Assembly (NCBI GenBank): GCA_002429165.1
Contig: DIYV01000050.1
Span: forward strand, 3,676-25,168
Direction of reading: 5' to 3'
Length of the DNA stretch: 21,493 nucleotides
Source of the DNA: Gallionella sp. UBA6045
GTDB lineage: Bacteria; Pseudomonadota; Gammaproteobacteria; Burkholderiales; Gallionellaceae
The notes beneath the pieces are model-generated. The model ran no database searches. It was given only the letters and a program-made list of their open reading frames with translations, and was not told the DNA's origin. Position numbers and translations under genes: made by a program. Numbering within the stretch: position 1 is the stretch's first letter; each line of letters begins with the position of its first letter. This document shows positions 1-17,114 of this stretch, one piece after another.

Positions 1-1193
1 GGTTCCAGACCAAGACGCAGGATGTTGGTGTCATCCGCCGAGTGAATCCCAACCGAATGGCCGGCGCCCTGAAAGTCATAGATATCGCTAACCAGTTGAC
101 ATGCGGCATCGAAATCCTTCGCACGGTAAACCGTCAGCACCGGTGAAAGCTTTTCGCCCGAAAAGGGGTACGCAGGACCGGTGCCGTTTTCCTCGACCAT
201 CAGAAAGCGAACCTTGGCAAAGCGTTCATCGGTCAGCCCTGCAAGTTGGGCGATCTTCGTGGCCTTCTGCGCAGTGATGGCACCGGACAACTTTCCGCTC
301 GGCCACATGGCCTCTTGGAGCGTGATTTTTTCATCGGCTGTCAGCAGGATTCCGCCAGCCGCTTGCAGGGCCGCTATCGCATCCGCGTAGACGCCATCGA
401 GAATGACCACGCTGTTCTCGGAAGAACAACTGGTTGCATTATCGAAAGTCTTCGAGGCAGCGATCGCCTCGGCGGCTTCCGCAAGATTGGCGCTGAGGTC
501 GATGATCGAGGCAACGTTGCCGGCACCCACGCCGAAGGCTGGCGTGCCGCAGGTGTAGGCAGCGCGGATATTGTTTTGCGAACCGGTAGCGACGACGAGA
601 TCGGCCTGCTTCATCAGTTCCTGCGTCGATTCCTTGGTGACCGGCGCCGGCAGGCACTGAACGAGATCCGTCGGCAGACCGAGTTTCTTTAGTTCTGTAT
701 GGATATAACCCACCAGAGTTTCAGCAGACGACAGGCCCTTCGGTGAGGGGGCGACGATGACGGCATTGCGGCACTTGAGTGCATTGATCACTTTGTTGGC
801 CGGCGTCGCCGCCGGGTTGGTCGAGGGCGTAATGGCGGCCACCACGCCGACTGGGCGTGCGATCTCGACCAGGCCGAGCTCCGGATACTCAGCGACGATA
901 CCGACCGTTTTTACGCCCTTGAGGTCACGCAGCAGGCCAAGCGTCTTGCGGTAATTCTTGGTGATTTTGTCCTCGACATCGCCGAGGCCGGTATCGCGCA
1001 CCGCCATATCAGCGAGCAGGCGGTTACGCCCCGGCTCCATGATGGCCCATCCGGCTGCGAGTACCGCCTCGTCGACTTCTGCCTGAGAGCATCGCTCGAA
1101 AGCGCGTTGTGCCACCCGGGCGCGGTTGATCAACGCCGCCACAGTGACTTGGGCTGCAGAAAGTGGTACGGTTGCGGTTTGTTCATTTGCCAC
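1..1193 (-). CDS. sauS: CoA-acylating aldehyde dehydrogenase, probable sulfoacetaldehyde dehydrogenase (3' end beyond window)
   Basis: The minus strand is open from a GTG at 1191-1193 to the window edge, giving 397 residues of a family usually about 460-480 long, so the C-terminus is missing. The GTG has a GAGGGG Shine-Dalgarno about 8 nt upstream. The protein is of the EutE/SauS acylating type: a proline/threonine-rich cofactor stretch ITPSTNPAATP (121-131), ATGSQNN (202-208), and the catalytic cysteine in NATSCSSEN (C256). Family knowledge: SauS reduces sulfoacetyl-CoA to sulfoacetaldehyde with NADPH in the cytoplasm. I prefer this substrate because xsc, which consumes sulfoacetaldehyde, lies 6 kb away and the adjacent divergent regulator is closely similar to the regulator beside xsc. 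The acylating dehydrogenase fold is secure; the substrate is inferred, and acetaldehyde, succinate semialdehyde or another aldehyde remains possible. Confidence 0.75.
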   Translation of the reverse strand, partial: MANEQTATVPLSAAQVTVAALINRARVAQRAFERCSQAEVDEAVLAAGWAIMEPGRNRLLADMAVRDTGLGDVEDKITKNYRKTLGLLRDLKGVKTVGIVAEYPELGLVEIARPVGVVAAITPSTNPAATPANKVINALKCRNAVIVAPSPKGLSSAETLVGYIHTELKKLGLPTDLVQCLPAPVTKESTQELMKQADLVVATGSQNNIRAAYTCGTPAFGVGAGNVASIIDLSANLAEAAEAIAASKTFDNATSCSSENSVVILDGVYADAIAALQAAGGILLTADEKITLQEAMWPSGKLSGAITAQKATKIAQLAGLTDERFAKVRFLMVEENGTGPAYPFSGEKLSPVLTVYRAKDFDAACQLVSDIYDFQGAGHSVGIHSADDTNILRLGLE

Positions 1194-1319
1194 GACTTGC
1201 CCCTCTTTACGACTAAACGATGCCACATGGCATTAATTATTTATGGAAATAATCTTTTCGATTTTAGAACTCTAATCGAGTTTCGAGCGCCACGTCAACA
1301 TAAAACTCAAAAAATGGAA

Positions 1320-1414: not shown

Positions 1415-2188
1415 ATGAGCGACCATTCCTTACCATCATCAGCTGCGGCACTGCGTGCCTTTGCCATTACGGATGTGGTCGTGCGGGCTGCGCGACCTGT
1501 GCCGCTATCCGAAATTGCCGAGCAATGCGGGCTGCCGGCTCCCACCGTATTCCGGATTTTGTCGATGCTTGAAGGCGCCGGCCTCGTGCTGCGCGAACCC
1601 ACCGGGAAAACCTATAGCGTTGGCCATCGACTGGCACGCTTCGGCCTCGAAATCATGACTAATAATTCGGTGCGCGCCGAGCGCCGCGTCATCCTGCGCA
1701 AGGTGGTCGACGAAATCGGCGAGACCTGCAACCTTGCCATGCTCAATGGCGACGAGATCGTCTACATCGACCGCGTCGAGACCGACTGGTCGCTCAAGGC
1801 TGAACTCAAGCCCGGTTCGCGCGTGCCCCTGCACTGCACATCGAGCGGCAAGCTGTTCCTCAGCCAGATGCCCAAGGCCAAGCGGCGCAGGATGCTGGAG
1901 TCACTGAGCCTCAAGCGCTATACCGACAACACGATTACTGACATGAACATGCTGGAGTCCCAACTCGAACGCATTGCTGTGACTAAGGTCGGACTGAACA
2001 ACGAGGAGTTTCAGGCTGGCGTGATTGGTGTTTCCGTCCCAGTCATGGATGACAAGGGCCACATGATCGCTAGCGTAGCCCTGCAAACTCCGGTGGCACG
2101 CCTGCCAATGAGCCGTGCCATGGAATGTGTGCCCCGCTTGCAACAGGCCGCTGCCGCCATGGCCGCGACTTTCTTCGAGGAGCAATAA
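1415..2188 (+). CDS. IclR-family transcriptional regulator 1
   Basis: The protein has 257 residues, a normal IclR length. An N-terminal winged helix-turn-helix (about 31-52, LSEIAEQCGLPAPTVFRILS) is followed by the C-terminal effector-binding domain. That domain carries GETCN (102-106), DRVET (119-123), PGSRVPLHCTSSGKLFL (133-149) and a later NNEEF. GGAAAG 4 nt upstream supports the ATG at 1415. The gene is divergent from the acylating aldehyde dehydrogenase, the usual layout for an IclR protein and its target. It is clearly a paralogue of the two other IclR proteins here (6079-6900 and 10685-11539), sharing the effector-pocket motifs, so related small acids or sulfonates are plausible effectors. 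The effector and the sign of regulation cannot be read from sequence. Confidence 0.92.
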   Translation: MSDHSLPSSAAALRAFAITDVVVRAARPVPLSEIAEQCGLPAPTVFRILSMLEGAGLVLREPTGKTYSVGHRLARFGLEIMTNNSVRAERRVILRKVVDEIGETCNLAMLNGDEIVYIDRVETDWSLKAELKPGSRVPLHCTSSGKLFLSQMPKAKRRRMLESLSLKRYTDNTITDMNMLESQLERIAVTKVGLNNEEFQAGVIGVSVPVMDDKGHMIASVALQTPVARLPMSRAMECVPRLQQAAAAMAATFFEEQ

Positions 2189-2283: not shown

Positions 2284-2664
2284 TCAGACTGTGTCGCATA
2301 GTTTCCACTCCGCTGTATCGATTGGCACGTAAGCCTCCACAGCCGCAGTTGCAACGACATGCGTGGTGCCCAGTTCGGGATCATGCACATTCAGCCCGCC
2401 CCGTACGGCGGTGACTTGCGCATAACCGCGTGGCAGTTCGGCGGCGACCACTGCGGTATCGACCTTGTCCGGTTCCTTCACGCCGATGGTGACCTGTACG
2501 CGCATCGCGCGATGGTCTATTTCCAGAGTACGGAACAGGACGATGGATGAATGATGCAGGGCGTCCTGCACGGCGCGGCAAGCAGCCTTGGTGTAGTCCT
2601 CGCCGTAAAGATCGTTGCCGCTGCCGGTTTCGAGAATAATTCTTTTTTCAGTCGCTGAAGTCAT
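2284..2664 (-). CDS. Lin0512-family protein, copy A (last gene of the cobST-like operon)
   Basis: This 126-residue soluble protein has no signal peptide or membrane segment. It matches the small uncharacterised Lin0512 family: SGNDLYGEDYTKAACRAVQDAL (about 15-36), IGVKEPDKVD (60-69), and RGGLNV followed by THVVATAAVEAYV near the C-terminus. Its ATG overlaps the stop of the upstream copy by 4 nt (ATGA), so the two are translationally coupled and probably work as a heteromeric pair. It diverges from copy B in the otherwise conserved GQGHSIRR region, which reads GSGNDLYG here, so the copies are specialised rather than a recent duplication. The family has no activity I can name with confidence. 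It ends tail to tail with iclR1. Confidence 0.8.
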   Translation of the reverse strand: MTSATEKRIILETGSGNDLYGEDYTKAACRAVQDALHHSSIVLFRTLEIDHRAMRVQVTIGVKEPDKVDTAVVAAELPRGYAQVTAVRGGLNVHDPELGTTHVVATAAVEAYVPIDTAEWKLCDTV

Positions 2665-3011
2665 TTGACCACCTCCATGTCAAAGGAAACGATGACCGCC
2701 GCGTTGGCGATAATATTAAGGCCATCACGATGCGGCTTGGGGATGTCCAATCCGCCATGCACCACCCGAATGGACAGCTGACCATAGGGAAAAACCTTGA
2801 GAATCTGTTTGACATCCACTTCTTCAGGTTTCTGCACGCCGATTTCCACATCGATGATCATGGCTGCCTTGGGAAAGCCGAAGGCCTCGGCAACAGTCAG
2901 CGAATTGTGCCAGAGCGCATCACGCACCGCCCGTTCGGCGGCTGCGGTGTAATCCTTGCGTCGTATCGAGTGCCCCTGGCCGAACTGCACTACCATGCGT
3001 TTTTTTGCCAT
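2661..3011 (-). CDS. Lin0512-family protein, copy B
   Basis: This 116-residue protein is the more canonical Lin0512 member: FGQGHSIRRKDYTAAAERAV (10-29), IGVQKPEEVD (57-66), VVHGGLDIPKPHRDG (83-97) and an alanine/valine-rich C-terminal strand region. AAGGAG lies just upstream of the ATG at 3009-3011, only 14 nt after the end of the CobT-like gene, so it is cotranscribed with it. Its stop overlaps the start of copy A. The function is unknown. Being in one transcript with an AAA+/VWA pair suggests these proteins are either the client of that machine or accessory subunits; that is inference from context only. Confidence 0.82.
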   Translation of the reverse strand: MAKKRMVVQFGQGHSIRRKDYTAAAERAVRDALWHNSLTVAEAFGFPKAAMIIDVEIGVQKPEEVDVKQILKVFPYGQLSIRVVHGGLDIPKPHRDGLNIIANAAVIVSFDMEVVK

Positions 3012-3025
3012 ACCTGCTCCTTAAT

Positions 3026-4765
3026 TTAGCGTCGGTGTTTTCTGCCGATCAACCGCACGATTTCATCAAACAGCGCGTTGTCCAGCGCTTGTGTCATGTC
3101 AGTCGCCAGATTATTCAGGTAAAAGGGGCTTAGGTCGAGGCCAACCCCGAGGCCCATGATTTCAACTGCACCTTCCCGCTCGCGCTGGGCCACCACGTCC
3201 TTGAGATGGTTGTCGAGGTAGAAAGTATCGTTGGCGCGTCCAGTCGCTGCGTCGTTTGGGCAGCCGTCGGATACTACGATCAGGATGCGGCGTGGTTCGC
3301 TACGTGAAAGCATGCGCTGGCAGGCCCAGTCAACCGCCTCGCCGTCGATGCCTTCGCGAAACAGGTCGGCCTTTAGCAAGGCGGCAACGCCGGTGCGCGA
3401 ACGTCGCCAGCTGCGACCTGCATGCTTGAACACCATGTGGCGAACTTCGTTGAGTCGGCCCGGATGCGCGGGTTCGCCCGCCCGTCGCCAGTCCTTCCAG
3501 GCGCGCCCGCCGTTCCACGTGCCCGTGGTAAAGCCCAGCAATTCGGAACTCACACCGGCCATGTCCAGTGCGCGTAGCAGGATATCGACCAGCGTTGCCA
3601 CCGGCTCGATGTGCGCCTTCATCGAGCCAGAGCAGTCCACCAAAATACTCACCAGACAATTGGATATCGGAGTGAAGCGATCCTGCCTGAATACCCGGCG
3701 TTCAGCCGGAGAGCTGATCAGTTGCGCCAACCGGCCGCCATCGACGATGCCCTCCTCTTCGCCGAACAGGCATCCGTCGTTGGCGGGCTCGGCCAACATT
3801 GCGCGCAGCAGGCGGGCCAGCCGCGGTACATTGATGCCTTGCGCGGCCACCCGCTTGTCGAGTATTTCGCGATATTCGCGCAGCATGGTCTGTCGCACCA
3901 GCGTCTGCGCCTCGACTTCGATGTCGTAGCAGGTGGTGTAAGCCTGATAGGTTTGCGACGCTTCGGCAAACACCTTGCTCTCGCCACTGAGGGCAAGCGC
4001 GGGGGCGTCGCCTTCGCCCTCTTCGAAATCGAGCAGCAGCGCAAATCGGCTGGCGGCTTCTCCAACCTCGTGATCTACCAGCGAAGTGTTCCAGTTACCG
4101 CCCCCTCCCTGCTCACCTTTAGTCATATCGCTGATTGTCCGGGCGATTTCCAGGGCGTAGGGAGCGAACTGCCGCTGGTCATGGCGAAAACGGCGCAGAC
4201 CAGCCAACGGGCTGCCGATACTCGAAGCCAGATTGAAGCGCGTGCTTTCGATGTAGTCCTCGGTTTCTTCCAGCACATGCTGGGCTGTCAGCCGCGACCA
4301 GCACACTTGCGCCACCGTATAGAACAAGATGCCCAACCGTCCTTTAGCAAGTCCAGCGCGATAAAAATCCCGCGACCAGTGCTCAAAGCGTTGCAGAACG
4401 TTGTGACGCATGCCCGGCATGTCATCGCGCACCAGCGTTTCGACACGCATCTGTTCGAGCCACTCGAACATCAGGCGGGCGATGGGATCCTCAACTCCCG
4501 GACAGAATTCGCGCTGAATCGCCGGATCGGAATACAGCAGGCGCAGTGCCGTGGCGTCGGTCGCGCCGCGGCACTCGGCAAAGTCGTCCTCGTCGGTATC
4601 GACGCGCAAATGCGGCGCATGCAGCGGAACCCGTCGCGCCCCCTGATGCAGTTGCCGACCGCGATAGTGCAGGTCGACGTCACCGGTGAGGGCGCGCAGG
4701 GTGGCGGCACAAAGTTCCTCGACTCGTTGCTGCCGCTTGGCGCGTTGTTGAGCACTGGCGGTCAC
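3026..4765 (-). CDS. cobT: CobT-like VWA-domain protein (cobaltochelatase CobT family)
   Basis: I place the start at GTG 4763-4765, preceded by CGGAG with 8 nt spacing, giving 579 residues; a TTG 42 nt further upstream also keeps the frame open but has no ribosome site. The N-terminal region (RVEELCAATLRALTG and beyond) resembles CobT. There is only a short acidic linker (FEEGEGD), and the C-terminal von Willebrand A domain has the metal-ion-adhesion motif DCSGS (377-381) and a later VVSDG. Family knowledge: CobT partners the AAA+ ATPase CobS and, with CobN, inserts cobalt in aerobic cobalamin synthesis. No CobN or cobalamin gene is visible, and the neighbours are sulfonate genes, so another client is likely. 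It is separated from the cobS-like gene by a broken remnant, and the Lin0512 genes follow closely. Confidence 0.85.
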   Translation of the reverse strand: MTASAQQRAKRQQRVEELCAATLRALTGDVDLHYRGRQLHQGARRVPLHAPHLRVDTDEDDFAECRGATDATALRLLYSDPAIQREFCPGVEDPIARLMFEWLEQMRVETLVRDDMPGMRHNVLQRFEHWSRDFYRAGLAKGRLGILFYTVAQVCWSRLTAQHVLEETEDYIESTRFNLASSIGSPLAGLRRFRHDQRQFAPYALEIARTISDMTKGEQGGGGNWNTSLVDHEVGEAASRFALLLDFEEGEGDAPALALSGESKVFAEASQTYQAYTTCYDIEVEAQTLVRQTMLREYREILDKRVAAQGINVPRLARLLRAMLAEPANDGCLFGEEEGIVDGGRLAQLISSPAERRVFRQDRFTPISNCLVSILVDCSGSMKAHIEPVATLVDILLRALDMAGVSSELLGFTTGTWNGGRAWKDWRRAGEPAHPGRLNEVRHMVFKHAGRSWRRSRTGVAALLKADLFREGIDGEAVDWACQRMLSRSEPRRILIVVSDGCPNDAATGRANDTFYLDNHLKDVVAQREREGAVEIMGLGVGLDLSPFYLNNLATDMTQALDNALFDEIVRLIGRKHRR

Positions 4766-4853
4766 GATTTGCGCTCCGACGTGTGATATACCAAAACCAT
4801 ACAACAAAAATACGGCTCCGGCAGGACGGCGGCATTTACCCTGAAAAAATCTC

Positions 4854-5070
4854 TCATCGCATCAGGCCATGCCGGATAACGACGTCCAGCGGCACGGCCC
4901 AACCGACCGCAATAAATTTTCTGACGGGACGAAAGAGCAGAATCCAGCCCGCGTAGCCGATCAGATAAAATCAGGAACGTGGCACCAAATCCAGTCAACC
5001 CGCATAACGTATAGGCCACAGTGGTGATCATGACTAGGCTGATCAGAAGCTGGTGAGAAGGCAGGTCCAT
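4854..5070 (-). pseudogene. Remnant of a membrane protein, possibly TauE/SafE-type permease
   Basis: This 217-nt stretch fills the gap between the CobS- and CobT-like genes. From ATG 5068-5070 one frame reads a hydrophobic N-terminus with TLCGLTGFGATFLIL, recalling the first helix of TauE/SafE sulfite exporters. The frame then degenerates, and a frame offset by one base (4964 to 4854) reads LIGYAGWILLFRPVRKF and further to a TGA, which looks like the last helix and tail of a permease. The join lies at a repeated CTGAT, as expected for an internal deletion through short homology. No ribosome site precedes the ATG. The remnant state is fairly clear; the TauE identity is tentative and rests mostly on the GLTGFG motif. 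Confidence 0.5.
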
Positions 5071-5101
5071 TATAATATATGAGCATTTCAAGCCCAAAAG
5101 C

Positions 5102-6082
5102 TCAGGATCGCCCGGCCTCTTTCATCCAGGATTCATCGAGTTCTTCGTTGAAACAGCGCTGGTAATACTCGGCGACGATGGGACGCTCGCTTTCGTCGCA
5201 CTTGTTGAGGAAGGAAAGACGGAAGGCCAATGCCGAATTGAGGAATATCTCGCAATTCTCTGCCCAAGTGATGACTGTGCGCGGCGACATCAGCAGCGAA
5301 AGATCGCCCACCGCAAAGCCCTTGCGCGTCAGTTCCGCCACCGCCACCATCGAGCGGATCAGTCTGCGACCATGATCGTTGTCCTTGCCTGGCACTCGCG
5401 CCAATACGATGGCAACCTCTTCTTCGGCCGGCAGGTAGTTCAGCGTGGCGACGATGTTCCAGCGGTCGATTTGCGCCTGGTTCAACATCTGCGTGCCGTG
5501 ATACATGCCGGACAGGTTGCCCAAGCCGACTGTATTCGACGTGGCGAACAATCGGAAACTGGGATGTGGGCGGATCACGCGGTTCTGGTCGAGCAGGGTG
5601 AACTTGCCATCGCGTTCGAGGATGCGCTGGATGACGAACATCACGTCCGGCCGGCCGGCATCGTATTCGTCGAAAATCAGCGCCACCGGCCGTTGCAATG
5701 CCCAGGGCACGATGCCCTCCTGAAATTCGGTGACCTGCTGTCCATCGCGCAGCACGATCGCATCCTTGCCTACCAGGTCCAGGCGGCTGATGTGGCCATC
5801 AAGATTCACTCTTACGCAGGGCCAATTGAGGCGTGCCGCGACCTGCTCCAGGTGGGTTGATTTTCCCGTGCCGTGCAGGCCCTGTACCATGACCCGACGA
5901 TTGTGGGTAAAGCCGGCGAGTATCGCCAAGGTGACGTCCGGATTGAAGCGATAGACCGTATCCACCTCGGGCACATGATCGTCACGCTCGCTGAAAGCCG
6001 GCACCAACATGTCAGAATCGATGCCGAACACGTCGCGCACCGAAACCTGCTGATCGGGTTGAATCTGGCTGATGTTGGTCAT
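5102..6082 (-). CDS. cobS: CobS-like AAA+ ATPase (cobaltochelatase CobS family)
   Basis: The protein has 326 residues, the usual CobS length. The N-terminus (VSVRDVFGIDSDMLVPAFSE, 13-32) is highly CobS-like. Walker A is GLHGTGKST (68-76), Walker B ALIFDEYD (134-141), and sensor 1 lies in FATSNT (179-184). As in MoxR/CobS ATPases, it should form a hexameric ring that works with a VWA partner, here the CobT-like gene downstream. Its ATG overlaps the stop of IclR regulator 2 by 4 nt (ATGA), so it is translationally coupled to the regulator and belongs to the same leftward operon. All nucleotide-binding residues are intact. Cobalt as the metal is not supported by the neighbourhood; a dedicated role in maturing an enzyme of the sulfonate pathway is inferred. 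Confidence 0.88.
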   Translation of the reverse strand: MTNISQIQPDQQVSVRDVFGIDSDMLVPAFSERDDHVPEVDTVYRFNPDVTLAILAGFTHNRRVMVQGLHGTGKSTHLEQVAARLNWPCVRVNLDGHISRLDLVGKDAIVLRDGQQVTEFQEGIVPWALQRPVALIFDEYDAGRPDVMFVIQRILERDGKFTLLDQNRVIRPHPSFRLFATSNTVGLGNLSGMYHGTQMLNQAQIDRWNIVATLNYLPAEEEVAIVLARVPGKDNDHGRRLIRSMVAVAELTRKGFAVGDLSLLMSPRTVITWAENCEIFLNSALAFRLSFLNKCDESERPIVAEYYQRCFNEELDESWMKEAGRS

Positions 6083-6900
6083 GTGCCGGTCCGGTCCGCC
6101 GAGATCGCTTCGGCGTCGATTGCAGCGATGGCATTCGCCGCGCGTTGCAGGGCAGGAAGAAGCTGGATTGCCTTATCAGGGGAAAGACGCATCACAGGGG
6201 CCTGGATCGCGATGCCGATGTTCGAGCGACCACCCGCTCGGGGCACCAACATGGCGATGCAGAACAGCCCGGGTAGAAACTCCTCGTTGTCGATCGCATA
6301 TCCGTCGCGATTGATCTTTTCGATCTCACGCTCCAATGCTTCGAGGTCGGTCAGAGTGCGCGGTGTGTATTGTTCCAGCGGTGCGTGTTCAAGCAGGCGC
6401 CGCCGCTGGCCAGGAGACATCTGGCCGAGGAAAAGCTTGCCGCTGGCCGAGCAGTGTGCCGGTACGCGCGATCCCGGGTGCAAATAGAAGCGCAGCGGCG
6501 CCGAGGTCTCCACCCGGTCGAGATAGAGCACTTCGCTGCCGGACAAGGCCGTGATATTGCAGTTTTCGCCGACCTCCTCGACCAGTTTGCGTAGTACCGC
6601 ATGGCGCGCGCCATGTACGGTGTTGTTGAGCAGCAAGGCTTCGGCTAGACGGCGTAATCGCAAACCGGTGCCGTAATGGCGGCCATCGCTTTCCCTTTGC
6701 AGCATGCCGGCGCTCTCCAGTTGCTGGAGCATGCGGTGCAGAGTCGGCTTGGGCAGGCCGGTTTCCTCGACCAGGCCTTGCAACGTAAAGAACTGGTTCT
6801 TGCCGGCGATCACTTCCAGCAACGCAAATAGACGCAATGCCGGCGTGTGGCCGTCAATACGTTCCGGTTCAGAGAACCGCGTACGATCTGTTTTATTCAT
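6079..6900 (-). CDS. IclR-family transcriptional regulator 2 (first gene of the cobST-like operon)
   Basis: The protein has 273 residues with a winged helix-turn-helix at about 39-61 (TLQGLVEETGLPKPTLHRML) and an effector domain with GENCN (111-115), DRVET (128-132), PGSRVPAHCSASGKLFL (142-158) and DNEEF. It is divergent from xsc across a 160-nt region containing several inverted repeats, and its stop overlaps the cobS-like start. It is therefore well placed to control both xsc-pta and its own operon. The ATG at 6898-6900 lacks a strong Shine-Dalgarno sequence, so the start is less certain than for the other regulators, although the next plausible start would cut into the DNA-binding domain. 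A C2 sulfonate or sulfoacetaldehyde-related effector is inferred from position. Confidence 0.9.
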   Translation of the reverse strand: MNKTDRTRFSEPERIDGHTPALRLFALLEVIAGKNQFFTLQGLVEETGLPKPTLHRMLQQLESAGMLQRESDGRHYGTGLRLRRLAEALLLNNTVHGARHAVLRKLVEEVGENCNITALSGSEVLYLDRVETSAPLRFYLHPGSRVPAHCSASGKLFLGQMSPGQRRRLLEHAPLEQYTPRTLTDLEALEREIEKINRDGYAIDNEEFLPGLFCIAMLVPRAGGRSNIGIAIQAPVMRLSPDKAIQLLPALQRAANAIAAIDAEAISADRTGT

Positions 6901-7026: not shown

Positions 7027-7060
7027 TTTATTATGATTTAAATTTCGAGGAGATTTTTTG

Positions 7061-8872
7061 ATGAGCAAGTCTGACAATCGCACCGTGCCGGTAGGTCCAA
7101 CCCGCATGACCCCTTCTGAAGCTTTCGTTGAAACCTTGGTCGCCAACGGCGTCACCGATATGTTCGGCATCATGGGTTCGGCCTTCATGGATGCCATGGA
7201 CATCTTCGCGCCGGCGGGCATCCGACTGGTCCCGGTGGTCCATGAACAGGGCGCCGGTCACATGGCCGACGGCTATTCGCGCGTCTCCGGTCGCCACGGC
7301 GTGGTCATCGGCCAGAACGGTCCCGGCATCAGCAATTGTGTGACTGCCATCGCCGCAGCCTACTGGGCACATTCGCCCGTGGTCATCATCACGCCGGAAA
7401 CCGGTACCATGGGCATGGGCCTCGGCGGCTTCCAGGAAGCCAACCAGCTGCCCATGTTCCAAGAATTTACCAAGTACCAGGGTCATGTGAACAATCCCAA
7501 GCGCATGGCCGAATTCACCGGCCGATGCTTCGACCGCGCCATGAGCGAGATGGGCCCTACCCAGCTCAACATTCCGCGCGACTACTTCTATGGCGACATC
7601 ACTTGCGAAATTCCCAAGCCCTCGCGTCTCGATCGCGGCCCCGGCGGCGAAAACAGCCTCAACGAAGCGGTCGAGCTGCTCGCCACCGCCAAGTTTCCGG
7701 TAATCATTTCCGGCGGCGGCGTGGTGATGGCCGATGGTGTTGAGGAATGCAAGGCACTGGCCGAGCGTCTGGGCGCACCGGTGGTGAACAGCTATCTGCA
7801 CAATGATTCCTTTCCGGCGAGCCATCCGCTGTGGTGCGGCCCGCTGGGCTACCAAGGTTCGAAAGCGGCGATGAAGCTGATGGCTCAAGCCGACGTGGTG
7901 ATTGCGCTGGGCTCGCGCCTCGGACCCTTCGGCACGCTGCCACAGCACGGTATGGACTACTGGCCGACCAAGGCCAAAATCATCCAGATCGATGCGGACC
8001 ACAAGATGCTTGGGCTGGTGAAAAAGATTTCCGTCGGCATCTGCGGCGACGCCAAGGCTGCGGCAGTGGCGCTGACGCAGCGCCTGGCCGGACGCACGTT
8101 AATCTGCGACGCCACCAAAACCTCTCGCTTCGAGACGATCAAGGCAGAGAAAGCGGCTTGGGAAAAGGAGCTCGATGAGTGGACCCATGAGCGCGACCCC
8201 TACAGCCTCGACATGATAGAAGAGAACGCCAAGGAGAAGACCTTCTCCGGTGGCGAATATCTGCATCCGCGTCAGGTGTTGCGCGAACTGGAAAAGGCCA
8301 TGCCACCGGATGTAATGGTGTCTACCGACATCGGCAACATCAATTCGGTGGCCAACAGCTACCTGCGTTTCGAAAAACCGCGCAGTTTCTTTGCCGCCAT
8401 GAGTTTCGGCAACTGCGGCTACGCCTTTCCGACCATCATCGGCGCGAAGGCAGCCGCACCGCATCGCCCGGCGGTCTCCTATGCCGGCGACGGCGCTTGG
8501 GGCATGAGCCTGATGGAAACCATGACCTGCGTGCGCCACAACATTCCGGTCACCGCCGTTGTGTTCCACAATCGCCAGTGGGGTGCGGAAAAGAAAAATC
8601 AGGTCGACTTCTACAACCGCCGTTTCGTCGCCGGCGAGCTCGACAACCAGAGCTTTGCCGATATTGGACGCGCGATGGGCGCCGAGGGCATCACGGTGGA
8701 CAAACTCGAAGACGTTGGCCCTGCGCTCAAAAAGGCCATCGACATGCAGATGAACGAAGGCAAGACCTGCATCCTGGAGATCATGTGTACCCGGGAACTG
8801 GGCGATCCGTTCCGTCGTGATGCATTGTCCAAGCCTGTTCGGCTCCTCGAAAAGTACAAGGATTACGTCTGA
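7061..8872 (+). CDS. xsc: Sulfoacetaldehyde acetyltransferase (Xsc)
   Basis: The protein has 603 residues, the normal Xsc length. It is a cytoplasmic thiamine-diphosphate enzyme that converts sulfoacetaldehyde and phosphate to acetyl phosphate and sulfite. The catalytic glutamate is E62 in VVHEQGAGHMADGY, and the ThDP/Mg motif runs from GDGAWGMS (476-483) to VVFHN (about 500-504), followed by the Xsc-typical stretch RQWGAEKKNQVDFYNRRFV. ATG 7061 is preferred over a TTG 3 nt upstream because GAGGAG lies 8 nt before it. pta follows 146 nt downstream, and iclR2 with the cobST-like operon is divergent. This is the desulfonation step on which taurine, isethionate and sulfoacetate pathways converge. 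The assignment is secure from the motif set and the xsc-pta pairing. Confidence 0.96.
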   Translation: MSKSDNRTVPVGPTRMTPSEAFVETLVANGVTDMFGIMGSAFMDAMDIFAPAGIRLVPVVHEQGAGHMADGYSRVSGRHGVVIGQNGPGISNCVTAIAAAYWAHSPVVIITPETGTMGMGLGGFQEANQLPMFQEFTKYQGHVNNPKRMAEFTGRCFDRAMSEMGPTQLNIPRDYFYGDITCEIPKPSRLDRGPGGENSLNEAVELLATAKFPVIISGGGVVMADGVEECKALAERLGAPVVNSYLHNDSFPASHPLWCGPLGYQGSKAAMKLMAQADVVIALGSRLGPFGTLPQHGMDYWPTKAKIIQIDADHKMLGLVKKISVGICGDAKAAAVALTQRLAGRTLICDATKTSRFETIKAEKAAWEKELDEWTHERDPYSLDMIEENAKEKTFSGGEYLHPRQVLRELEKAMPPDVMVSTDIGNINSVANSYLRFEKPRSFFAAMSFGNCGYAFPTIIGAKAAAPHRPAVSYAGDGAWGMSLMETMTCVRHNIPVTAVVFHNRQWGAEKKNQVDFYNRRFVAGELDNQSFADIGRAMGAEGITVDKLEDVGPALKKAIDMQMNEGKTCILEIMCTRELGDPFRRDALSKPVRLLEKYKDYV

Positions 8873-9018
8873 ACGGCTTGTCATCCGGGTATTTGTAGCG
8901 AGCACCCTCGGCGCGGTTGATCCATGACTCTCGACTGGGTCGGTCGGTAATTTACCACAGCGACGGCATGGTGGGTCACGTTCACCATGTTTCCAGGAAA
9001 GGATTTACGAGGTCAGCA

Positions 9019-9954
9019 ATGAACAAGCATCACCATCTCGACAAGCTCATCGGCGACGCGCTTTCGCTTCCATCGCCCCGCGTCGCCGTATGTTTTCCAT
9101 GCAGCGCAAGCTCGATCGAAGCGGCAGTCTCGGCTCAGCAAATGGGGCTGATTCAAGCCATCATGATCGGACCTCGCAAACGGATCGAAGCGATTGCCGC
9201 CAAGAGCGCCATCGACATCACCGGAGTCGAATTCGTCGAAACAGGCGACGATCCCGTAGCGGCAGCACAGAAGTCGGCCGAGCTGTGCCGTGCCGGAAGT
9301 GCCAACGTCATCATGAAGGGAAGCCTGCATACCGATGAATTGCTCGGCACCGTTGTCAGCAAGGAAGGCGGCTTGCGGACCAGTCGCCGCATGAGCCACG
9401 TATTTGTGTTCGACCTCCCGGATCAGCCAAAACTATTGCTGATGGCGGATTGCGTCATCAACATCAACCCGGGTCTGATGGAAAAGCGCGACATCATTCA
9501 AAACGCGATTGACGTGGCGCATGCGTTGAGTATCGACCTCCCCTATGTCGCCATCTTGTCGGCGGTGGAGATGATCAATCCGGCAATTCCGGGAACCATC
9601 GATGCGGCGGCGCTGTGCAAAATGGCGGAAAGAGGGCAAATTACAGGCGCGGTTGTCGACGGCCCGCTGAGTTATGACATTGCTATTTCCATAGAGGCGG
9701 CGCGCATCAAGGGCATCAACTGGCCCCAAGCCGAACGGCCGGACATACTGATCATGCCGAACCTGGAAGCCGGAAACATGCTCTACAAGCAGATGGTTTA
9801 TGTCGCGAAAGCGGAGTGCGCAGGTATCGTGCTGGGCACGAAAGTTCCGATCGTGCTTACTAGTCGCACCGACTCGCCCAAAGCCCGGGTCGCCTCCTGC
9901 GCGCTTGCGATCATTCATGCAAACGCGATGGAGCGGAACAAATTGGCGGACTAG
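9019..9954 (+). CDS. pta: Phosphate acetyltransferase (short Pta type)
   Basis: ATG 9019, preceded by GAGG at 9009-9012, gives 311 residues. The frame is open upstream to 8917, but that part resembles nothing in the family. It is the short phosphate acetyl/butyryltransferase type without the N-terminal regulatory domain of enterobacterial Pta. Visible family features are VAVCFPCSASSIEAAVSAQ near the N-terminus, VIMKGSLHTDELLGTVV in the middle, RRMSHVFVFD, the DGPLSYDIAI stretch and MPNLEAGNMLYKQM near the C-terminus. It converts the acetyl phosphate made by Xsc into acetyl-CoA. It lies directly downstream of xsc on the same strand, the standard arrangement in sulfonate-degrading bacteria, and probably shares its transcript. 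Confidence 0.92.
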   Translation: MNKHHHLDKLIGDALSLPSPRVAVCFPCSASSIEAAVSAQQMGLIQAIMIGPRKRIEAIAAKSAIDITGVEFVETGDDPVAAAQKSAELCRAGSANVIMKGSLHTDELLGTVVSKEGGLRTSRRMSHVFVFDLPDQPKLLLMADCVININPGLMEKRDIIQNAIDVAHALSIDLPYVAILSAVEMINPAIPGTIDAAALCKMAERGQITGAVVDGPLSYDIAISIEAARIKGINWPQAERPDILIMPNLEAGNMLYKQMVYVAKAECAGIVLGTKVPIVLTSRTDSPKARVASCALAIIHANAMERNKLAD

Positions 9955-10684: not shown

Positions 10685-11539
10685 TCAGGCGCTTGCCGGA
10701 AACAGAACCTGTCTCATCGCGTCGGCCGCAACACGCAGGTCGGGCACGCCGGCCAAAAGTTCATCCAGAGACATGCGCGCGGTAGGCGCATGGCAGGCGA
10801 TGGCAGCCACCAACTTGTTATCACTACCTCGTACCGGCACTGCCACGGCAACCATGCCGCGGACGAACTCCTCATTATCTATGCCGACATTCCGTTTGCC
10901 TATCTTTTCCAACTCGATCTCGAGTTCCTGGCGGTCAATAATCGTATGTGGCGAGGAGCGGGTCAATGGCAGATGGGTGAGGACGCTTCGCCTTTCCAGA
11001 AGAGACATGGACGCAAGAAACAGTTTACCGCTTGCCGTGCAATGCATCGGCACCCAGGTGCCGGGCTGTAGGTGCATTCTCAGGGGCGCAGTCGTGTCTA
11101 TACGCTCGACATAGAGTACGCGTCCGGCATCAGGCACCGTCAGATTGCAGGTCTCGCCGAGCTTCCTTACCAGACCGCGAAGCACCGCTCGACATTCGCG
11201 TCGTATATTTGCGCCGCGCAGCGTTCTAAGCGCAAGCGTAGTTGATCGGACACCCGGTACAAAGCCGCGCTCGGCCGGCATGTGCATCACATAGCCGTGC
11301 AATTCCATGGAGCGCAGCAATCGCATCATAGTACTTTTTGGTACGCGCATAAGGCTGCTCAACTGCGCGAGCGTTAACGGTTGTGATGCTTCACTCAGAT
11401 ACTTAAGAACCGTCAGCGGTCGCAGGCAGCGAACATCGTCGCTTGAGTCCGCACGTTCCGGCTCGCGATTGTCGTTTGGTTCGGGTTCTGCCCGTGCTGC
11501 AGTGCGATATTGATCTGTCTGTCCGCTATTTCGTTTCAT
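10685..11539 (-). CDS. IclR-family transcriptional regulator 3 (IseR-like by context)
   Basis: ATG 11537-11539 is chosen because AGGAGG lies about 7 nt upstream; a start 18 nt earlier is possible but has no such site. The 284-residue protein has an N-terminal polar extension of about 35 residues, a winged helix-turn-helix at about 55-78, and an effector domain with GETCN (128-132) and VPMHCTASGKLFL (163-175), ending with DNEEF and an alanine-rich tail. The pocket motif PGTWVP replaces the PGSRVP of the other two paralogues, suggesting a different ligand. It is divergent from the GMC oxidoreductase. An IclR regulator beside a GMC enzyme matches my recollection of the isethionate (ise) gene clusters, so control of isethionate oxidation is the favoured inference. 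Confidence 0.9.
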   Translation of the reverse strand: MKRNSGQTDQYRTAARAEPEPNDNREPERADSSDDVRCLRPLTVLKYLSEASQPLTLAQLSSLMRVPKSTMMRLLRSMELHGYVMHMPAERGFVPGVRSTTLALRTLRGANIRRECRAVLRGLVRKLGETCNLTVPDAGRVLYVERIDTTAPLRMHLQPGTWVPMHCTASGKLFLASMSLLERRSVLTHLPLTRSSPHTIIDRQELEIELEKIGKRNVGIDNEEFVRGMVAVAVPVRGSDNKLVAAIACHAPTARMSLDELLAGVPDLRVAADAMRQVLFPASA

Positions 11540-11609
11540 TTTTAGCCTCCTACGCAAATTCTTCTTGGCTTATTTTATTGGATGGCCAATAGTCAGCCTC
11601 GCTGCATAT

Positions 11610-11626: not shown

Positions 11627-11698
11627 TTCTATGAATAAGTTTCGGCGACTGCATACTAGATTATTCGTGTCGACCGGCACATGAAGGAGATAGGCACC

Positions 11699-13300
11699 AT
11701 GTCATTGGAAGTTGACTACATTGTGGTCGGTGCGGGTTCAGCAGGTTGCGTTCTGGCCAATCGGCTGTCTGAAAATCCTGGCAACCGCGTCCTGCTTCTC
11801 GAGGCTGGCGGCCCTGACACCAACCCGTGGATTCATGTTCCGGTTGGTTACTTCAAGACGATGCACAATCCAAAAACTGATTGGTGCTATGTCACGGAGC
11901 CGGATGCAGGCATTGCCAACCGTCAGTTGCAATGGCCACGCGGAAAAGTACTGGGTGGATCGAGCTCGATCAACGGCCTACTTTACGTGCGCGGACAGCG
12001 CGAGGACTACGACCGCTGGGTTGAACTGGGAAACGAGGGCTGGAGCTATGCCGAGGTTCTGCCCTATTTCAAGAAATCCGAAGATCAGGAACGTGGCGCC
12101 AGTGAGTACCACGGTGTAGGTGGTCCTCTTAAGGTCTCCGATCTTCGGTTGCGCCGACCGATTGCCGATCATTTCATCGCTGGTGCCAAAGATATCGGTA
12201 TCCCCTTTAACGAAGACTGTAACGGCGCAGTCCAGGAGGGCGTCGGATACTTCCAGCAGAACGCTTACAACGGATTACGCTGGAGCACCGCCAAGGGTTT
12301 TCTTCGCCCAGCCAAAAATCGCCCAAACCTGATTGTTAAAACAAGAGCACAGGCTACGCGCGTACTGTTTGAAGGCAAGCGTGCGGTCGGCGTCGAATAC
12401 CGGCAGGGTGAGCAACTCCACCAAGTCCGTGCAGTTGCAGAGGTGATTCTTTCCGCCGGAGCCATCGGATCACCACAGATATTGCAATGTTCCGGCATCG
12501 GCCCGAGCGCGCTTCTTGATAAAGTTGGCATTCCGGTGGTCCACCAATTGCCAGGCGTCGGCAAGAACCTGCAAGATCATCTTCAGATACGCTTGGTCTT
12601 CAAGACCCGCGAGCGTACTCTGAACGATGAGGTCAACAATCCGATCAACAAGATGTTGATCGGATTGCAGTACATGCTGTTCCGCACCGGACCGCTGACA
12701 TTGGCGGCAAGTCAGGTGTTGATATTTACCCGATCCAGCACTGAGGTGGCTCGTCCCGATATCCAGTTTCACATGCAACCTTTGAGCGCCGACAAGCCCG
12801 GCGATGGTCCGCATCGATTCTCGGCATTCACCTCATCGGTCTGCCAGCTGCGCCCGTACAGTCGCGGTAGCATTGAGATCAAGTCGGCAGATGCCCTGCA
12901 GTATCCCGCGATCCAGCCCAACTACTTGTCTGACGAGCGTGACCACGCGGTGGCGATAGGCGGCATCAAAGTGGCCCGGCGCATCGCCCAGTCACCCTCG
13001 CTTGCTCCCCACATCCTTTCCGAGTTCGTGCCCGGTAGTCAATTTCAGTCTGACGCCGAACTCCTCGATGTCGCCCGTCGCTATAGCCAGACGATCTACC
13101 ACCCGGCCGGAACCTGCAAGATGGGCGTCGATGATCAGGCCGTGGTCGATCCCCGCCTCAAGGTGCATGGCGTCGAGCGTCTGCGCGTCGTCGATTGTTC
13201 GATCATGCCGGAGATCGTTTCCGGCAACACCAATGCACCCACAATCATGATTGCCGAGAAGGCCGCCGACATGATCAAGCAGGATCGCGCCACACTGTAA
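11699..13300 (+). CDS. GMC-family FAD oxidoreductase, possible isethionate dehydrogenase (IseJ-like)
   Basis: ATG 11699 follows AAGGAG with 9 nt spacing, giving 533 residues; an in-frame ATG 18 nt earlier contains that ribosome site and is unlikely to be used. The choline-dehydrogenase-like layout is complete: FAD fold VVGAGSAG (9-16), GMC signature [18 protein letters not shown] (about 82-99), second signature [16 protein letters not shown], and the C-terminal active-site stretch [10 protein letters not shown] (about 467-476) with [16 protein letters not shown]. No signal peptide or membrane helix is seen. Family knowledge: GMC enzymes oxidise primary alcohols, and isethionate dehydrogenase IseJ belongs to this family. 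Near xsc and divergent from an IclR regulator, oxidation of isethionate to sulfoacetaldehyde is the favoured role. Choline or another alcohol cannot be excluded from sequence alone. Confidence 0.85.
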
Positions 13301-13436: not shown

Positions 13437-15068
13437 TCATCGTATTGTAGATTGGGAAATTGCGATGGTCGGGTTTACATCCTTGCGCAGGATTTTCCCA
13501 TTTTTAGTGCGCGGGAAATCGTTTGCGAGATAGATTGTTTTTGGAGTCTTGTAGGCCGCCAGGTGCGCGCGGCCGAAGACCAACAGTTCATCTGCTGTCG
13601 TGGTGCTGCCGGGTCGCATGATCACGTAGGCCACGACCAGCACCTTGTCTTTTTCGATCTCCTCCCCGACCGAGGCGCAGTCTGCTACAGCCGGGTGCGA
13701 TTTCAGCACTCGTTCTATCTCATAGGGAGAAACGCGATAGCCGAAGCTTTTGATGATGTCGTCCTTGCGTCCCAGGAACCAGATGTAGCCATCCGTATCG
13801 TAACGCGCGTAGTCGCCGGTAAAGAACCAACCGTCATGCCTGAGTTTGGCGGTTTCCTCGGGCCTGTTCCAGTATTTCAGGAACAGACCGGGGTCATCAT
13901 CCGGCACGCAGATCATGCCCTCTTCGCCTGCGGTCACCGGCTTCAAGGTTTCAGGATCGAGAAGTTGTATCTGGTGTCCGGGCTGCGGAAAACCCGCCGA
14001 TCCGGGACGTATCGGCCGGGATCTGGTCTGGCACAGGTAGTAGGAAAACTCGGACATGCCGACCGCCTCATAGATATCCACGCCAAAACGCTCGCGCCAT
14101 TGGGTCAGCACTTCATCCGAGAGGTGCTCGCCCGCACTCATGCAGTGGCGCAGGCTGGGAACATCTGCGCTGGTGAGTTCGCTCTTCTGCACGATCTGGC
14201 GATAGATGGTCGGTACACCGACAAAGATGGTGGCGGAATGTTTTTTGATCAAGCGCGGCCAGGTGTTGGCGTCGTTCTTGCCTTCATGAACGATCACGGT
14301 CTTGCCCAGATACAACGGGTCCATCAGGCCGGAGCCCAGCACATAGGTCCAGTTGAACTTGCCCGAATGCATGATGCGATCGCCGTCACCGGCAAAATCG
14401 AACCAGTAGGTCGAAGCGGGCGTGCGGCCGATCATGGCACGGTGCGCGTGCAACACACCCTTGGGATAGCCGGTGGTACCGGAGGTATAGACCAGGTAGG
14501 CCGGATCGATCGATTTCGTCCAGTGCGGAGCTTGCCACTGCGTGATTCCTGACAAGGCAGTCTCCATATCCTGCACGTTCAACCCGGCGACTGCGGATAC
14601 TTCACCCGGACCGGAAAGCAGCACATGGCGCAGATTGACCGCGTCCTGCAACTGGTCCTTGAGCGTCGCCCAGGCTGCCTTGTCTGTAACCAGCACCGAT
14701 GCGCCGGAATCCTGCGCGAGATAAACCACTTCCTCGGCGGTCAGCAAGGTGGAGGTTGGCACGGAAACGGCGCCGCGCTTCATCGCACCGAGGAATGCGG
14801 TGGGATAGTCCAGTGAGTTAGGTAAGCGGATCAGGATACGCTCGCCGGCTCCGACACCAAGGTCGCGCAACAACTGGGCGAAGCGGCTGGTACGCTCGGA
14901 CAATTGCGCGAAGGTAATCTGCGACGTACCCAGTTTGTCGTCTTCCACGATCATCGCGATATTGTCCGCGGCGGGTGTGTCCAGGTGTGCGTCGGTACAG
15001 GCGACACCGATATTGAAATTCTCGGGCACTTGCCATATCCAGGGTGCGAACGGTTTGAAGTTGGACAT
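13437..15068 (-). CDS. AMP-forming acyl-CoA synthetase
   Basis: The protein has 543 residues with an intact ANL-superfamily set: ATP-binding loop YTSGTTGYPKG (194-204), GWFFTGD (413-419), hinge GRKDDIIKSFGYRVSPYEIE (433-452) and the C-terminal catalytic lysine K525 in RTKNGKILRKD. It resembles aryl/short-chain acid-CoA ligases rather than acetyl-CoA synthetase. GGAG lies 6 nt before the ATG. The gene begins 8 nt after the end of the upstream CitE-like lyase gene, so the two form an operon and the ligase probably makes the CoA ester that the lyase or the MaoC hydratase uses, such as a mesaconyl-, citramalyl- or malyl-type ester. A sulfoacetate-CoA ligase feeding the SauS-like enzyme is an alternative. 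It converges on the GMC gene. Confidence 0.88.
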   Translation of the reverse strand: MSNFKPFAPWIWQVPENFNIGVACTDAHLDTPAADNIAMIVEDDKLGTSQITFAQLSERTSRFAQLLRDLGVGAGERILIRLPNSLDYPTAFLGAMKRGAVSVPTSTLLTAEEVVYLAQDSGASVLVTDKAAWATLKDQLQDAVNLRHVLLSGPGEVSAVAGLNVQDMETALSGITQWQAPHWTKSIDPAYLVYTSGTTGYPKGVLHAHRAMIGRTPASTYWFDFAGDGDRIMHSGKFNWTYVLGSGLMDPLYLGKTVIVHEGKNDANTWPRLIKKHSATIFVGVPTIYRQIVQKSELTSADVPSLRHCMSAGEHLSDEVLTQWRERFGVDIYEAVGMSEFSYYLCQTRSRPIRPGSAGFPQPGHQIQLLDPETLKPVTAGEEGMICVPDDDPGLFLKYWNRPEETAKLRHDGWFFTGDYARYDTDGYIWFLGRKDDIIKSFGYRVSPYEIERVLKSHPAVADCASVGEEIEKDKVLVVAYVIMRPGSTTTADELLVFGRAHLAAYKTPKTIYLANDFPRTKNGKILRKDVNPTIAISQSTIR

Positions 15069-15076
15069 GGTTGCTC

Positions 15077-16231
15077 CTACAGAATGACGCCGTACGGCCA
15101 GTTTTCACGAATGACCTGGGCAGGCATCAGTTGCAATACTGTCATGGCGAATTCGGTATCTTCCGGTGTGAGAGCGCGCAGGGCATGCGCCCGCAGCAAA
15201 GTCTGCAATGCCTTGCCGAACATGGGCGGATCGAGCATCTCCCCCTCGAACTTGATCGCACCGCCCAGCAGCGCATCCGCCTCGATGGCGGCTTTCAATA
15301 CCCGGATCTTTTGCGAGACTTCAGTGGGGGACGGGGTATACGCCACCTTGCACAGATGGATATGAGCCGGATGGATGACCTGCTTTCCGGTCAACCCGTT
15401 TGCCGATTCCTGGCAGGCATGCTTGTAAACGATGTGCGATTCATTTTCGCCGTGCAGATCCAGCCAGCGGCGCACATCATGCGGCTCGACAAAGTTCTCC
15501 GGCATGCTGCTGGAGCCGATCAATGTTTCCACGCCGCCGATGACACCTTTTCCGGCGATGCGCGCCTCGAACATGATCTGGTTGAGATAATATTTGAGCT
15601 CTTCGGTCCAGTGCTCCGGCGTGATCTGGATACCCATCGCTTTCGAAAAGTCATGAATGCCGAACACGACATGCTTGACCGTGCTGTATTGCATCAGGTC
15701 CGGCGCGATCTTCAGTGATTTGGGGTGCTCGATGATGGGCTGGATAGTGATCGGGTGATCCAGGCCCACCAGAAAATTGGACAGGTCCCTGACTTCGGGT
15801 GCGCCATATGCTTCGCCCGCCTTGGCCAGCATCACCACGTCGATATGCGCGGCCATGTCCCTGACCAGCTTCATGTCCAGCTCGTACTCTTCGGTACGGA
15901 ACGGATTCACCCTGATCGCGATCGCGACCTCGTGTCTGCGCTTGAACTTGGGCAGCTCCTGCCTGAGCAAGGTCCTGCTCAATTCCTTCTGGCGGCAGCC
16001 GTCTTCCAGATCAAAGATCAGTGTGTGCGCGTGGGTCGCGTGCGCATGTTTCTTCATGCGCTGGGCCGCCGCTTCCAGATCCTCGTATATCCCCAGCGCG
16101 GGCGCATATTTGACCGGCGGATAATACAACTGGATCCCCGGCCAGTATCCGCCCAACACCCCGGTGGCTGCACTGCCGGAGAGTTCCTTGCCGTGGCTGC
16201 GACCGTCCTTTTGCTTTTCACTGTTCTTCAT
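15077..16231 (-). CDS. CitE-like (HpcH/HpaI family) CoA-ester lyase, long form
   Basis: ATG 16229-16231 has GGAGG 6 nt upstream and gives 384 residues; the frame extends 11 codons further without a ribosome site. It is longer than typical CitE proteins (about 290). The family core is present: FDLEDG (73-78), an arginine in AIRVNP, the metal-ligand glutamate in PIIEHP (165-170), GIHDFSKAMG (191-200) and the late GKQVIHP. Additional sequence is a polar N-terminal 25 residues and a C-terminal extension (GGAIKFEGEMLDPPMF and beyond), as seen in malyl-CoA and beta-methylmalyl-CoA lyases. It would reversibly cleave a 3-hydroxyacyl-CoA to a 2-oxoacid or glyoxylate and an acyl-CoA. It forms an operon with the acyl-CoA synthetase. 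Exact substrate unknown. Confidence 0.82.
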   Translation of the reverse strand: MKNSEKQKDGRSHGKELSGSAATGVLGGYWPGIQLYYPPVKYAPALGIYEDLEAAAQRMKKHAHATHAHTLIFDLEDGCRQKELSRTLLRQELPKFKRRHEVAIAIRVNPFRTEEYELDMKLVRDMAAHIDVVMLAKAGEAYGAPEVRDLSNFLVGLDHPITIQPIIEHPKSLKIAPDLMQYSTVKHVVFGIHDFSKAMGIQITPEHWTEELKYYLNQIMFEARIAGKGVIGGVETLIGSSSMPENFVEPHDVRRWLDLHGENESHIVYKHACQESANGLTGKQVIHPAHIHLCKVAYTPSPTEVSQKIRVLKAAIEADALLGGAIKFEGEMLDPPMFGKALQTLLRAHALRALTPEDTEFAMTVLQLMPAQVIRENWPYGVIL

Positions 16232-16284
16232 GCTGTCCTCCTCGATCCTATTTCGCTTCACCAAATATCCGAACCCAGATGCAC

Positions 16285-17007: not shown

Positions 17008-17086
17008 TGCCTTGCCCCTGTCGTTGAGATCATCATGAATGACGTGCAGCGAATCTATCACGCAATTTTTGCTGAATCAAGTATTA

Positions 17087-17106
17087 TATATCTTATATAA
17101 GATATA
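17087..17106. promoter_or_regulatory. 20-bp perfect palindrome, probable GntR operator
   Basis: TATATCTTATATAAGATATA is a perfect palindrome ending 8 nt before the -35 box of the rightward promoter and 80 nt from the GntR start codon. Its size and symmetry fit a HutC-type dimer site. The palindrome is directly visible; regulator binding is inferred. Confidence 0.6.
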
Positions 17107-17114
17107 AGAATTAG

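Follow-up and report, generated by a model that had tools for sequence, protein, structure and literature searches.

The stretch of DNA analysed here, hereafter the window, comprises 21,493 nucleotides (positions 3,676 to 25,168 of contig DIYV01000050.1, our C171) of the 2.81 Mb metagenome-assembled genome (MAG) of Gallionella sp. UBA6045 (GCA_002429165.1), which is 83% complete. It contains a leftward operon in which the gene for an IclR-family regulator is followed by a cobS-like gene, a cobT-like gene and two genes of the Lin0512 family, linA and linB. The operon stands back to back with xsc and pta, encoding sulfoacetaldehyde acetyltransferase (Xsc) and a phosphate acetyltransferase (Pta; Table 1). 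A first-pass annotation, made from the sequence alone, had placed every one of these genes correctly and had proposed that the CobS/CobT pair serves C2-sulfonate catabolism instead of cobalamin synthesis, with the Lin0512 proteins or an enzyme upstream of sulfoacetaldehyde as its partner. The assignment of a non-cobalamin pair to C2-sulfonate catabolism stands, whereas neither proposed partner fits the wider set of loci, and Xsc itself emerges as the candidate client, if a tentative one. Where individual loci or genomes have to be told apart, they carry L or G numbers.

The genes of both proteins of the pair are open. The translation of CobS holds intact motifs that we take to be Walker A (GLHGTGKST) and Walker B (LIFDEYD), and CobT, read in translation and in an alignment of CobT proteins, retains the presumed residues of the metal ion-dependent adhesion site (MIDAS), namely DCSGS, the T of GFTT and the D of SDG. 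The intact motifs described by the first-pass annotation are, therefore, confirmed, and together they are those of a MoxR-type AAA+ ATPase with a von Willebrand factor A (VWA) partner. By sequence, the closest relatives of the two proteins in the Protein Data Bank (PDB) are the cobaltochelatase subunits CobS and CobT. Neither protein reaches the equivalog model of its cobalamin counterpart: CobS falls narrowly below the cut-off of TIGR01650 (547.6 against 558.55 bits), and CobT far below that of TIGR01651 (270.5 against 759.05 bits).

The phylogeny of CobT showed a branch of 33 rows, including the window's protein, supported by values of 100/100; eight cobalamin-type CobT proteins from alphaproteobacterial genomes and three further rows fall outside it. 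This 44-row tree omits ten loci of the same CobT type (L012, L029, L032, L049, L072, L085, L093, L094, L124 and L128), and the deepest row of the clade, L097, lies on a long branch and its placement is unsure. Grouping with true cobalamin-pathway genes, which the first-pass annotation had named as fatal to its proposal, is thus not what the tree shows. The divergence of the window's CobT from the cobalamin type is uneven along the protein, with identities of 19.9% in the N-terminal domain, 21.7% in the middle region and 38.3% in the VWA domain, as against 56.0%, 48.1% and 65.2% within its own clade. It also lacks the long acidic stretch that cobalamin-type CobT has in its middle. CobS, for its part, is 68-71% identical to the CobS proteins of seven alphaproteobacterial genomes that have a cobalamin-type CobT. 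From these comparisons, the motor (CobS) appears to have been kept and the adaptor (CobT) changed. The first-pass remark that no CobN is visible extends to the window's whole genome, where, at 83% completeness, no match to the CobN profile PF02514 was found. Nor was a CobN match found in 17 of the 26 genomes with a CobT of this kind that were searched.

Other CobT-like proteins were encountered along the way. In a MAG of the Paracoccaceae (L098, 5758-10209), genes for an IclR regulator, a diverged CobT-like protein (618 aa; PF11775, 247 bits) and a GMC oxidoreductase follow one another, and a stretch of 19 kb contains no CobS match; this may represent another re-use of CobT. A third CobT class, scoring 196-206 bits, occurs in 10 of the 201 genomes of the family sample described below, none of them with xsc (for example, L117 at 8756 in G540 and L118 at 7974 in G489).

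The distribution of the window-type CobT follows that of xsc. We searched 201 genomes of the family that includes Halomonas elongata (record G391), calling xsc at an E value of at most 1e-110, with 28 of the 29 calls lying above the curated cut-off. CobT of the window's type was found in 30 genomes (129-171 bits, one of them split), being present in 28 of the 29 genomes with xsc against 2 of the 172 without it (Fisher value 9e-31, uncorrected for kinship). In one of the two exceptions, G380, pieces of xsc lie at both contig ends; in the other, G383, the contig starts about 0.3 kb before cobS. Three more genomes of the family gave weak CobT matches only. The second sample was a collection of 72,556 plasmid and chromid records, 702 of which match CobT. 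Among the 40 of these that were listed, seven, from the genera Paraburkholderia, Burkholderia, Caballeronia, Cupriavidus and Photobacterium, encode a CobT at least 47% identical over 95-96% of its length, and all seven carry an xsc of at least 86% identity within 4 kb of cobT. The proteobacterial plasmid records with an xsc at or above 86% are exactly those seven. The only other records above 60% are three from Rhodococcus (85%), and 145 records hold an xsc below 60% identity only.

Gene neighbourhoods were compared across 43 CobS/CobT loci. This set includes one remnant, L116, and leaves out the duplicates L108 and L109 and the loci with other CobT types (L100-L106, L117, L118 and L121); the short stretches L001-L009 had been dropped before counting. 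Twenty of the 43 were reached through a Lin0512 scan and so hold Lin0512, most others were fetched for a known CobT, and several were chosen because both CobT and xsc were known there. With that selection in mind, xsc lies within about 11 kb of the pair in 36 of the 43. Among the remaining seven, three stretches end near cobS, two genomes have xsc on another contig, one has it 19 kb away on the same contig and one is the remnant. The pair is, then, kept beside xsc in relatives, a lack of which would have told against the first-pass annotation, and the comparison that it had called for, of co-occurrence with xsc and with cobN, comes out on the side of xsc in the genomes sampled. We are highly confident that the window's CobS and CobT belong to a clade that is separate from cobalamin synthesis and linked to xsc. 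Pta, by comparison, is of two types across these clusters.

Two observations bear on the history of these clusters. The remnant L116 (9371-11352, G486) retains matches to CobT and Pta of 79 and 32 residues, respectively. Its genome yielded no xsc but still carries the Lin0512 pair at another site, and CobT and xsc appear to have degenerated jointly there. In two Halomonas loci (L021 and L043), cobST-linAB lies between two almost identical copies of xsc, as does pta-cobTS in P. phymatum (L125), which may be why contigs break at xsc.

AAA+/VWA pairs are often encoded beside the client that they serve, as with cbbQO and norQD. Since Xsc is the constant neighbour of the pair, it is the first candidate client. 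Our best reading, by analogy with such pairs, is that CobS and CobT form a remodelling machine, and we give Xsc a probability of roughly 40% of being its client. A MoxR-type AAA+ ATPase and its VWA adaptor would have left cobalamin synthesis and become the dedicated helper of one type of Xsc, with CobS supplying the ring motor and CobT carrying the client, as in CbbQO and NorQD. The machine would make physical contact with Xsc and pull on enzyme that is inhibited or whose cofactor is damaged, so that the thiamine-diphosphate (ThDP) site is cleared and filled again. The Lin0512 pair would be an accessory, recruited to the operon in certain lineages.

The chemistry of the reaction offers a motive. 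Xsc uses ThDP and produces sulfite, which is known to cleave thiamine, so that damage to the cofactor could plausibly be why an ATP-driven helper exists. A sharper form of the proposal, which we regard as doubtful, makes the CobS/CobT clade an Xsc activase, an AAA+ machine repairing a ThDP enzyme. Each active site would risk the loss of its own cofactor to the sulfite that it releases; the machine would open the damaged site, fragments would leave and new ThDP would enter, and the thiamine-synthesis genes and sulfite exporters of the same clusters would meet the resulting demand. We know of no earlier case in which an AAA+ machine repairs a ThDP enzyme. A thiamine gene (ThiO, ThiG or ThiC) does occur in 13 of the 43 loci, with ThiO beside TauX in 11, ThiG in two and ThiC in one, and ThiC precedes linA in Halomonas urumqiensis. 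According to a published reconstruction (PMC5320631), the TauR regulons of actinobacteria include thiG. The Xsc proteins found with CobS/CobT share a conserved C-terminal tail, L[ED]KY[KQ]D[YF]V, which is missing from three Xsc proteins of the distant type. Ten acetolactate-synthase-like rows that had entered the Xsc tree through a low threshold were left out of this comparison. The cob and nocob labels of that tree follow the collected CobT rows, and several nocob rows do have CobS/CobT, so that the label counts are unused.

Several observations weigh against Xsc as the client. A Rhodococcus plasmid encodes an Xsc 85% identical to the window's without any CobS/CobT match in the surrounding 24 kb, and two further Rhodococcus records have the same Xsc. 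In G602, xsc and TauXY are present, yet its genome gave no CobT match and the 19 kb surrounding xsc contain no CobS. These two cases suggest that the pair is not strictly needed for the close Xsc type. The tail also occurs in the Rhodococcus Xsc, and it is thus a possible handle for the machine and no proof of one. Because ThiO adjoins TauX, the thiamine genes may only reflect a demand for ThDP, and descriptions of Xsc present it as a normal ThDP enzyme that stays active on purification. Nine of the 26 genomes mentioned above hold CobN without a second CobT, and the pair may serve CobN in them. The family counts carry no correction for kinship. Finally, co-occurrence does not separate Xsc from another constant function of the cluster, such as sulfite handling.

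An alternative, which we consider unlikely, is that the pair metallates or remodels another protein or cofactor of the cluster, for instance together with a CobW-like, COG0523-type GTPase and an Amidohydro_3 protein, or in sulfite handling or thiamine synthesis. The thiamine genes of 13 loci speak for it, as does an amidohydrolase in five of the 43, and a CobW-like GTPase is encoded beside cobT in Caballeronia, with a relative in L072. Proteins of COG523 and COG1574 are also reported from TauR regulons of Comamonadaceae (PMC5320631). However, at a threshold of 38%, the GTPase was found in only two of the 43 loci, and xsc is more constant than any such gene. In the Caballeronia locus (sp. NK8; L124, 16104-18721), the genes for the GTPase and the Amidohydro_3 protein are convergent with cobT.

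The first-pass annotation had named the Lin0512 proteins as a possible partner, and we think it decidedly unlikely that CobS/CobT load metal into, or remodel, a Lin0512 heteromer that performs or supports a C2-sulfonate step. Both window proteins belong to the family, scoring above the PF09585 cut-off; against TIGR02058 (cut-off 56.85), LinA is above (57.9 bits) and LinB below (50.3 bits). They are 32% identical to each other. The best PDB match for the AlphaFold model of LinA (pLDDT 89.8) is 3c8l (Foldseek E 3.1e-11, TM about 0.8), an entry whose title calls it a protein of unknown function. The association with the regulon is real: the lin genes overlap and share the operon, and in the family sample the Lin0512 pair is present in 23 of the 29 xsc genomes against 5 of the 172 others, while window-type CobT is present in 25 of the 28 Lin0512 genomes against 5 of the 173 without Lin0512. 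A Lin0512 scan gave at least 550 candidates, of which the 80 best were fetched; LinA and LinB are adjacent to each other in all 80 loci. The genomes of 50 of these loci were searched for Lin0512, CobN, CobT and xsc. Two Lin0512 copies were found in 49 and three in one, and xsc was above cut-off in 37, several of the others having only pieces of it at contig ends. In L097, one Lin0512 gene follows cobT directly.

Association goes no further than that, however. Five genomes with both CobT and xsc (G424, G520, G555, G586 and G594) gave no genome-wide Lin0512 match, nor, at an E value of 1e-5, did the seven plasmid records that carry both of these genes, a search that covered the plasmid records and not the chromosomes. 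A Lin0512 match is missing from the stretch in 20 of the 43 CobS/CobT loci, which is not a rate, since 20 of the loci came from the Lin0512 scan and most others were fetched for a known CobT. Those 20 comprise eight whose genomes hold the pair elsewhere (G382, G384, G386, G389, G392, G396, G469 and G486), the five without it and the seven plasmid records. Conversely, CobS/CobT stand beside the Lin0512 pair in 20 of the 80 fetched loci and are lacking from the stretch in the other 60. In 31 of these 60, from the Roseobacter group, the pair sits in a housekeeping region, between genes that we read as trxA-like and hslV-like. The Halomonas genomes G376 and G385 retain the pair with neither CobT nor a true xsc, and a 19 kb stretch of G258 that includes it contains no xsc and no CobS/CobT. 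Lin0512 is, therefore, associated with the regulon, neither needed by it nor restricted to it, and is not supported as the general partner of CobS/CobT.

The candidate metal site of LinA, D31xxxH35, was taken from invariant charged or histidine positions of the Lin0512 alignment and is weakened by 3c8l, where H35 is retained and D31 is replaced by N. Kinship of Lin0512 with RidA or chorismate mutase was discarded because the structural matches of this kind are weak, with query TM values below about 0.45. A guess from gene lengths in Ruegeria that Lin0512 is a cobalamin gene was likewise abandoned, the neighbours there reading as AddA/AddB, thioredoxin, HslV and HslU. Two plasmid regions of Azospirillum carry distant Lin0512 genes, without a sulfonate context. 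The family is rare in the window's own class, with matches in 4 of 369 genomes, three of them, including the window's, above cut-off.

The other partner considered by the first-pass annotation, an enzyme upstream of sulfoacetaldehyde, we judge improbable, be it TauXY, a GMC enzyme or SauS. By profile, TauX is a SnoaL-like protein and TauY a DAO-type FAD oxidoreductase; we presume these names from the gene order of TauR-TauXY-xsc clusters. TauX and TauY do adjoin CobS/CobT in many loci, and a survey of 80 selected genomes, at a threshold of 55% or more, placed TauY in 43 of the 46 that have the CobT. Yet no TauY match was found in the window's genome (83% complete), in G143 (99% complete) or in G369, and TauXY was dropped as partner on that account. 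Plasmids of Cereibacter and Paracoccus provide the reverse case, carrying TauR, TauXY, Pta and the distant Xsc type (44-45%) in the same arrangement, while the stretches of 14-18 kb that were read gave no match to CobS, CobT or Lin0512. Across the 43 CobS/CobT loci, the upstream module varies, with TauY in 24, SauS in four and a GMC enzyme in five, and no upstream enzyme is common to all. As this module changes between loci while xsc stays, an upstream enzyme is not supported as the general client.

It is highly improbable that the pair is still the cobaltochelatase motor of a CobN encoded elsewhere and sits beside xsc by chance, for although its CobS is close to that of genomes with cobalamin-type CobT and nine of the 26 genomes could supply a CobN, the other 17 and the window's genome gave no CobN match, its CobT forms a clade of its own with a diverged N-terminal domain, and the pair follows xsc in two samples.

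Comparison with known systems places the proposed Xsc machine among related pairs. With the CobNST cobaltochelatase, the window shares two protein families and a CobT VWA domain with MIDAS; it differs in scoring below both NCBIfam equivalog cut-offs, in lacking a CobN match in its genome, in its link to xsc and in a CobT of separate clade, with 20% N-terminal identity and no long acidic middle region. The Rubisco activase CbbQ/CbbO likewise joins an AAA+ to a VWA protein and is linked to its client, which in our case is a proposed one only, but the client and the AAA+ subfamily are different, and the Xsc tail also occurs in Rhodococcus, where the stretch had no CobS/CobT. We know of no assay for an Xsc activase. 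NorQ/NorD, too, combines a MoxR AAA+ protein with a VWA partner; it differs in that NorQD inserts FeB into nitric oxide reductase, and to our knowledge Xsc has no metal site beyond its Mg-ThDP site. According to published work, CbbQO removes inhibitors from Rubisco and acts through the Rubisco C terminus (PMC4660213), a variable N-terminal domain of NorD has been proposed to set its target (PMC9976466) and NorQD drives metal insertion (PMC13036017). For the Lin0512 proteins, the comparison is with 3c8l (Nostoc Npun_R1471), which belongs to the same family by profile and has the same fold as LinA, whereas the window has two diverged copies as an overlapping gene pair.

The surroundings of the operon fit its assignment (Table 1). 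SauS, whose open reading frame (ORF) lies to the left of the span described by the first-pass annotation, presumably turns sulfoacetate carbon into sulfoacetaldehyde, and the GMC enzyme may, we assume, do likewise for isethionate; the region, therefore, reads as a sulfoacetaldehyde regulon. A relative of IclR1 (76%), for which we assume the name SauR, lies between linB and sauS in L010, and relatives of IclR2 occur in 20 of the 43 loci. The GMC oxidoreductase has relatives (77-83%) in L016, L079, L095 and L124, each with xsc. Further right (13437-20160), the window encodes an AMP-dependent acyl-CoA ligase, three CitE/RipC-type lyase-like proteins, a RipB/Ich-like hydratase and a GntR regulator, which together look like a pathway for C-C cleavage of a CoA ester, all models being below their curated cut-offs.

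The cobT gene probably starts at GTG 4765 rather than at TTG 4807 (ORF 3026-4807), leaving a spacer of about 336 bp before it. In 43 other stretches, representing 41 distinct loci, the cobS-cobT distance, extrapolated from alignments, ranges from -15 to 92 bp, so that a spacer of this length was not seen in any of them. Its G+C content is 0.50 as against 0.56. Inspection for transposable-element ends gave no convincing inverted repeats, and a fragment of a sulfite exporter was rejected because the spacer ORF has no Pfam match.

Table 1. Features of the window; positions are counted from its first nucleotide
Feature	Position	Strand	Evidence and remarks
SauS, acylating sulfoacetaldehyde dehydrogenase	3..1226	-	NF047625 614.7 bits (cut-off 600); ORF open, runs off the left window end
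IclR1, IclR-family regulator, SauR-like by position	1415..2188	+	PF01614, PF09339; divergent from sauS
LinB, second Lin0512-family protein	2284..2664	-	PF09585 109.9 bits (cut-off 23.4); 4 bp overlap with linA
LinA, first Lin0512-family protein	2661..3011	-	PF09585 113 bits (cut-off 23.4)
CobT-like VWA protein	3026..4765	-	PF11775 152.1 bits, PF06213 74.3 bits
cobS-cobT spacer, about 336 bp	4766..5101	-	follows from the probable GTG start at 4765
CobS-like AAA+ ATPase	5102..6082	-	TIGR01650 547.6 bits; Walker A and Walker B intact
IclR2, operon-leading IclR-family regulator	6079..6900	-	PF01614, PF09339; 4 bp overlap with cobS
xsc, sulfoacetaldehyde acetyltransferase, close type (here type A)	7058..8872	+	TIGR03457 1068.2 bits (cut-off 676.4)
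pta, phosphate acetyltransferase (PTA/PTB family)	8917..9954	+	PF01515 145.8 bits; ORF start, true start may be further in
IclR3, IclR-family regulator	10685..11557	-	NCBIfam IclR-type models, all below cut-off
GMC oxidoreductase, candidate isethionate dehydrogenase	11681..13300	+	PF00732, PF05199

Among openly licensed papers in PMC, we found no report of a link between CobS/CobT and xsc and no paper on lin0512, and a narrow search for the cleavage of thiamine by sulfite gave none either. Xsc holds a central place in the desulfonation of taurine, isethionate and sulfoacetate. If Xsc is indeed the client, an ATP-driven helper tied to one type of this enzyme would be an unrecognised step in sulfonate breakdown, and it would show the re-use of a cobalamin chelatase motor for a new client. 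It may also explain why genes annotated as cobalt chelatase, for instance in Caballeronia, follow xsc and not CobN.

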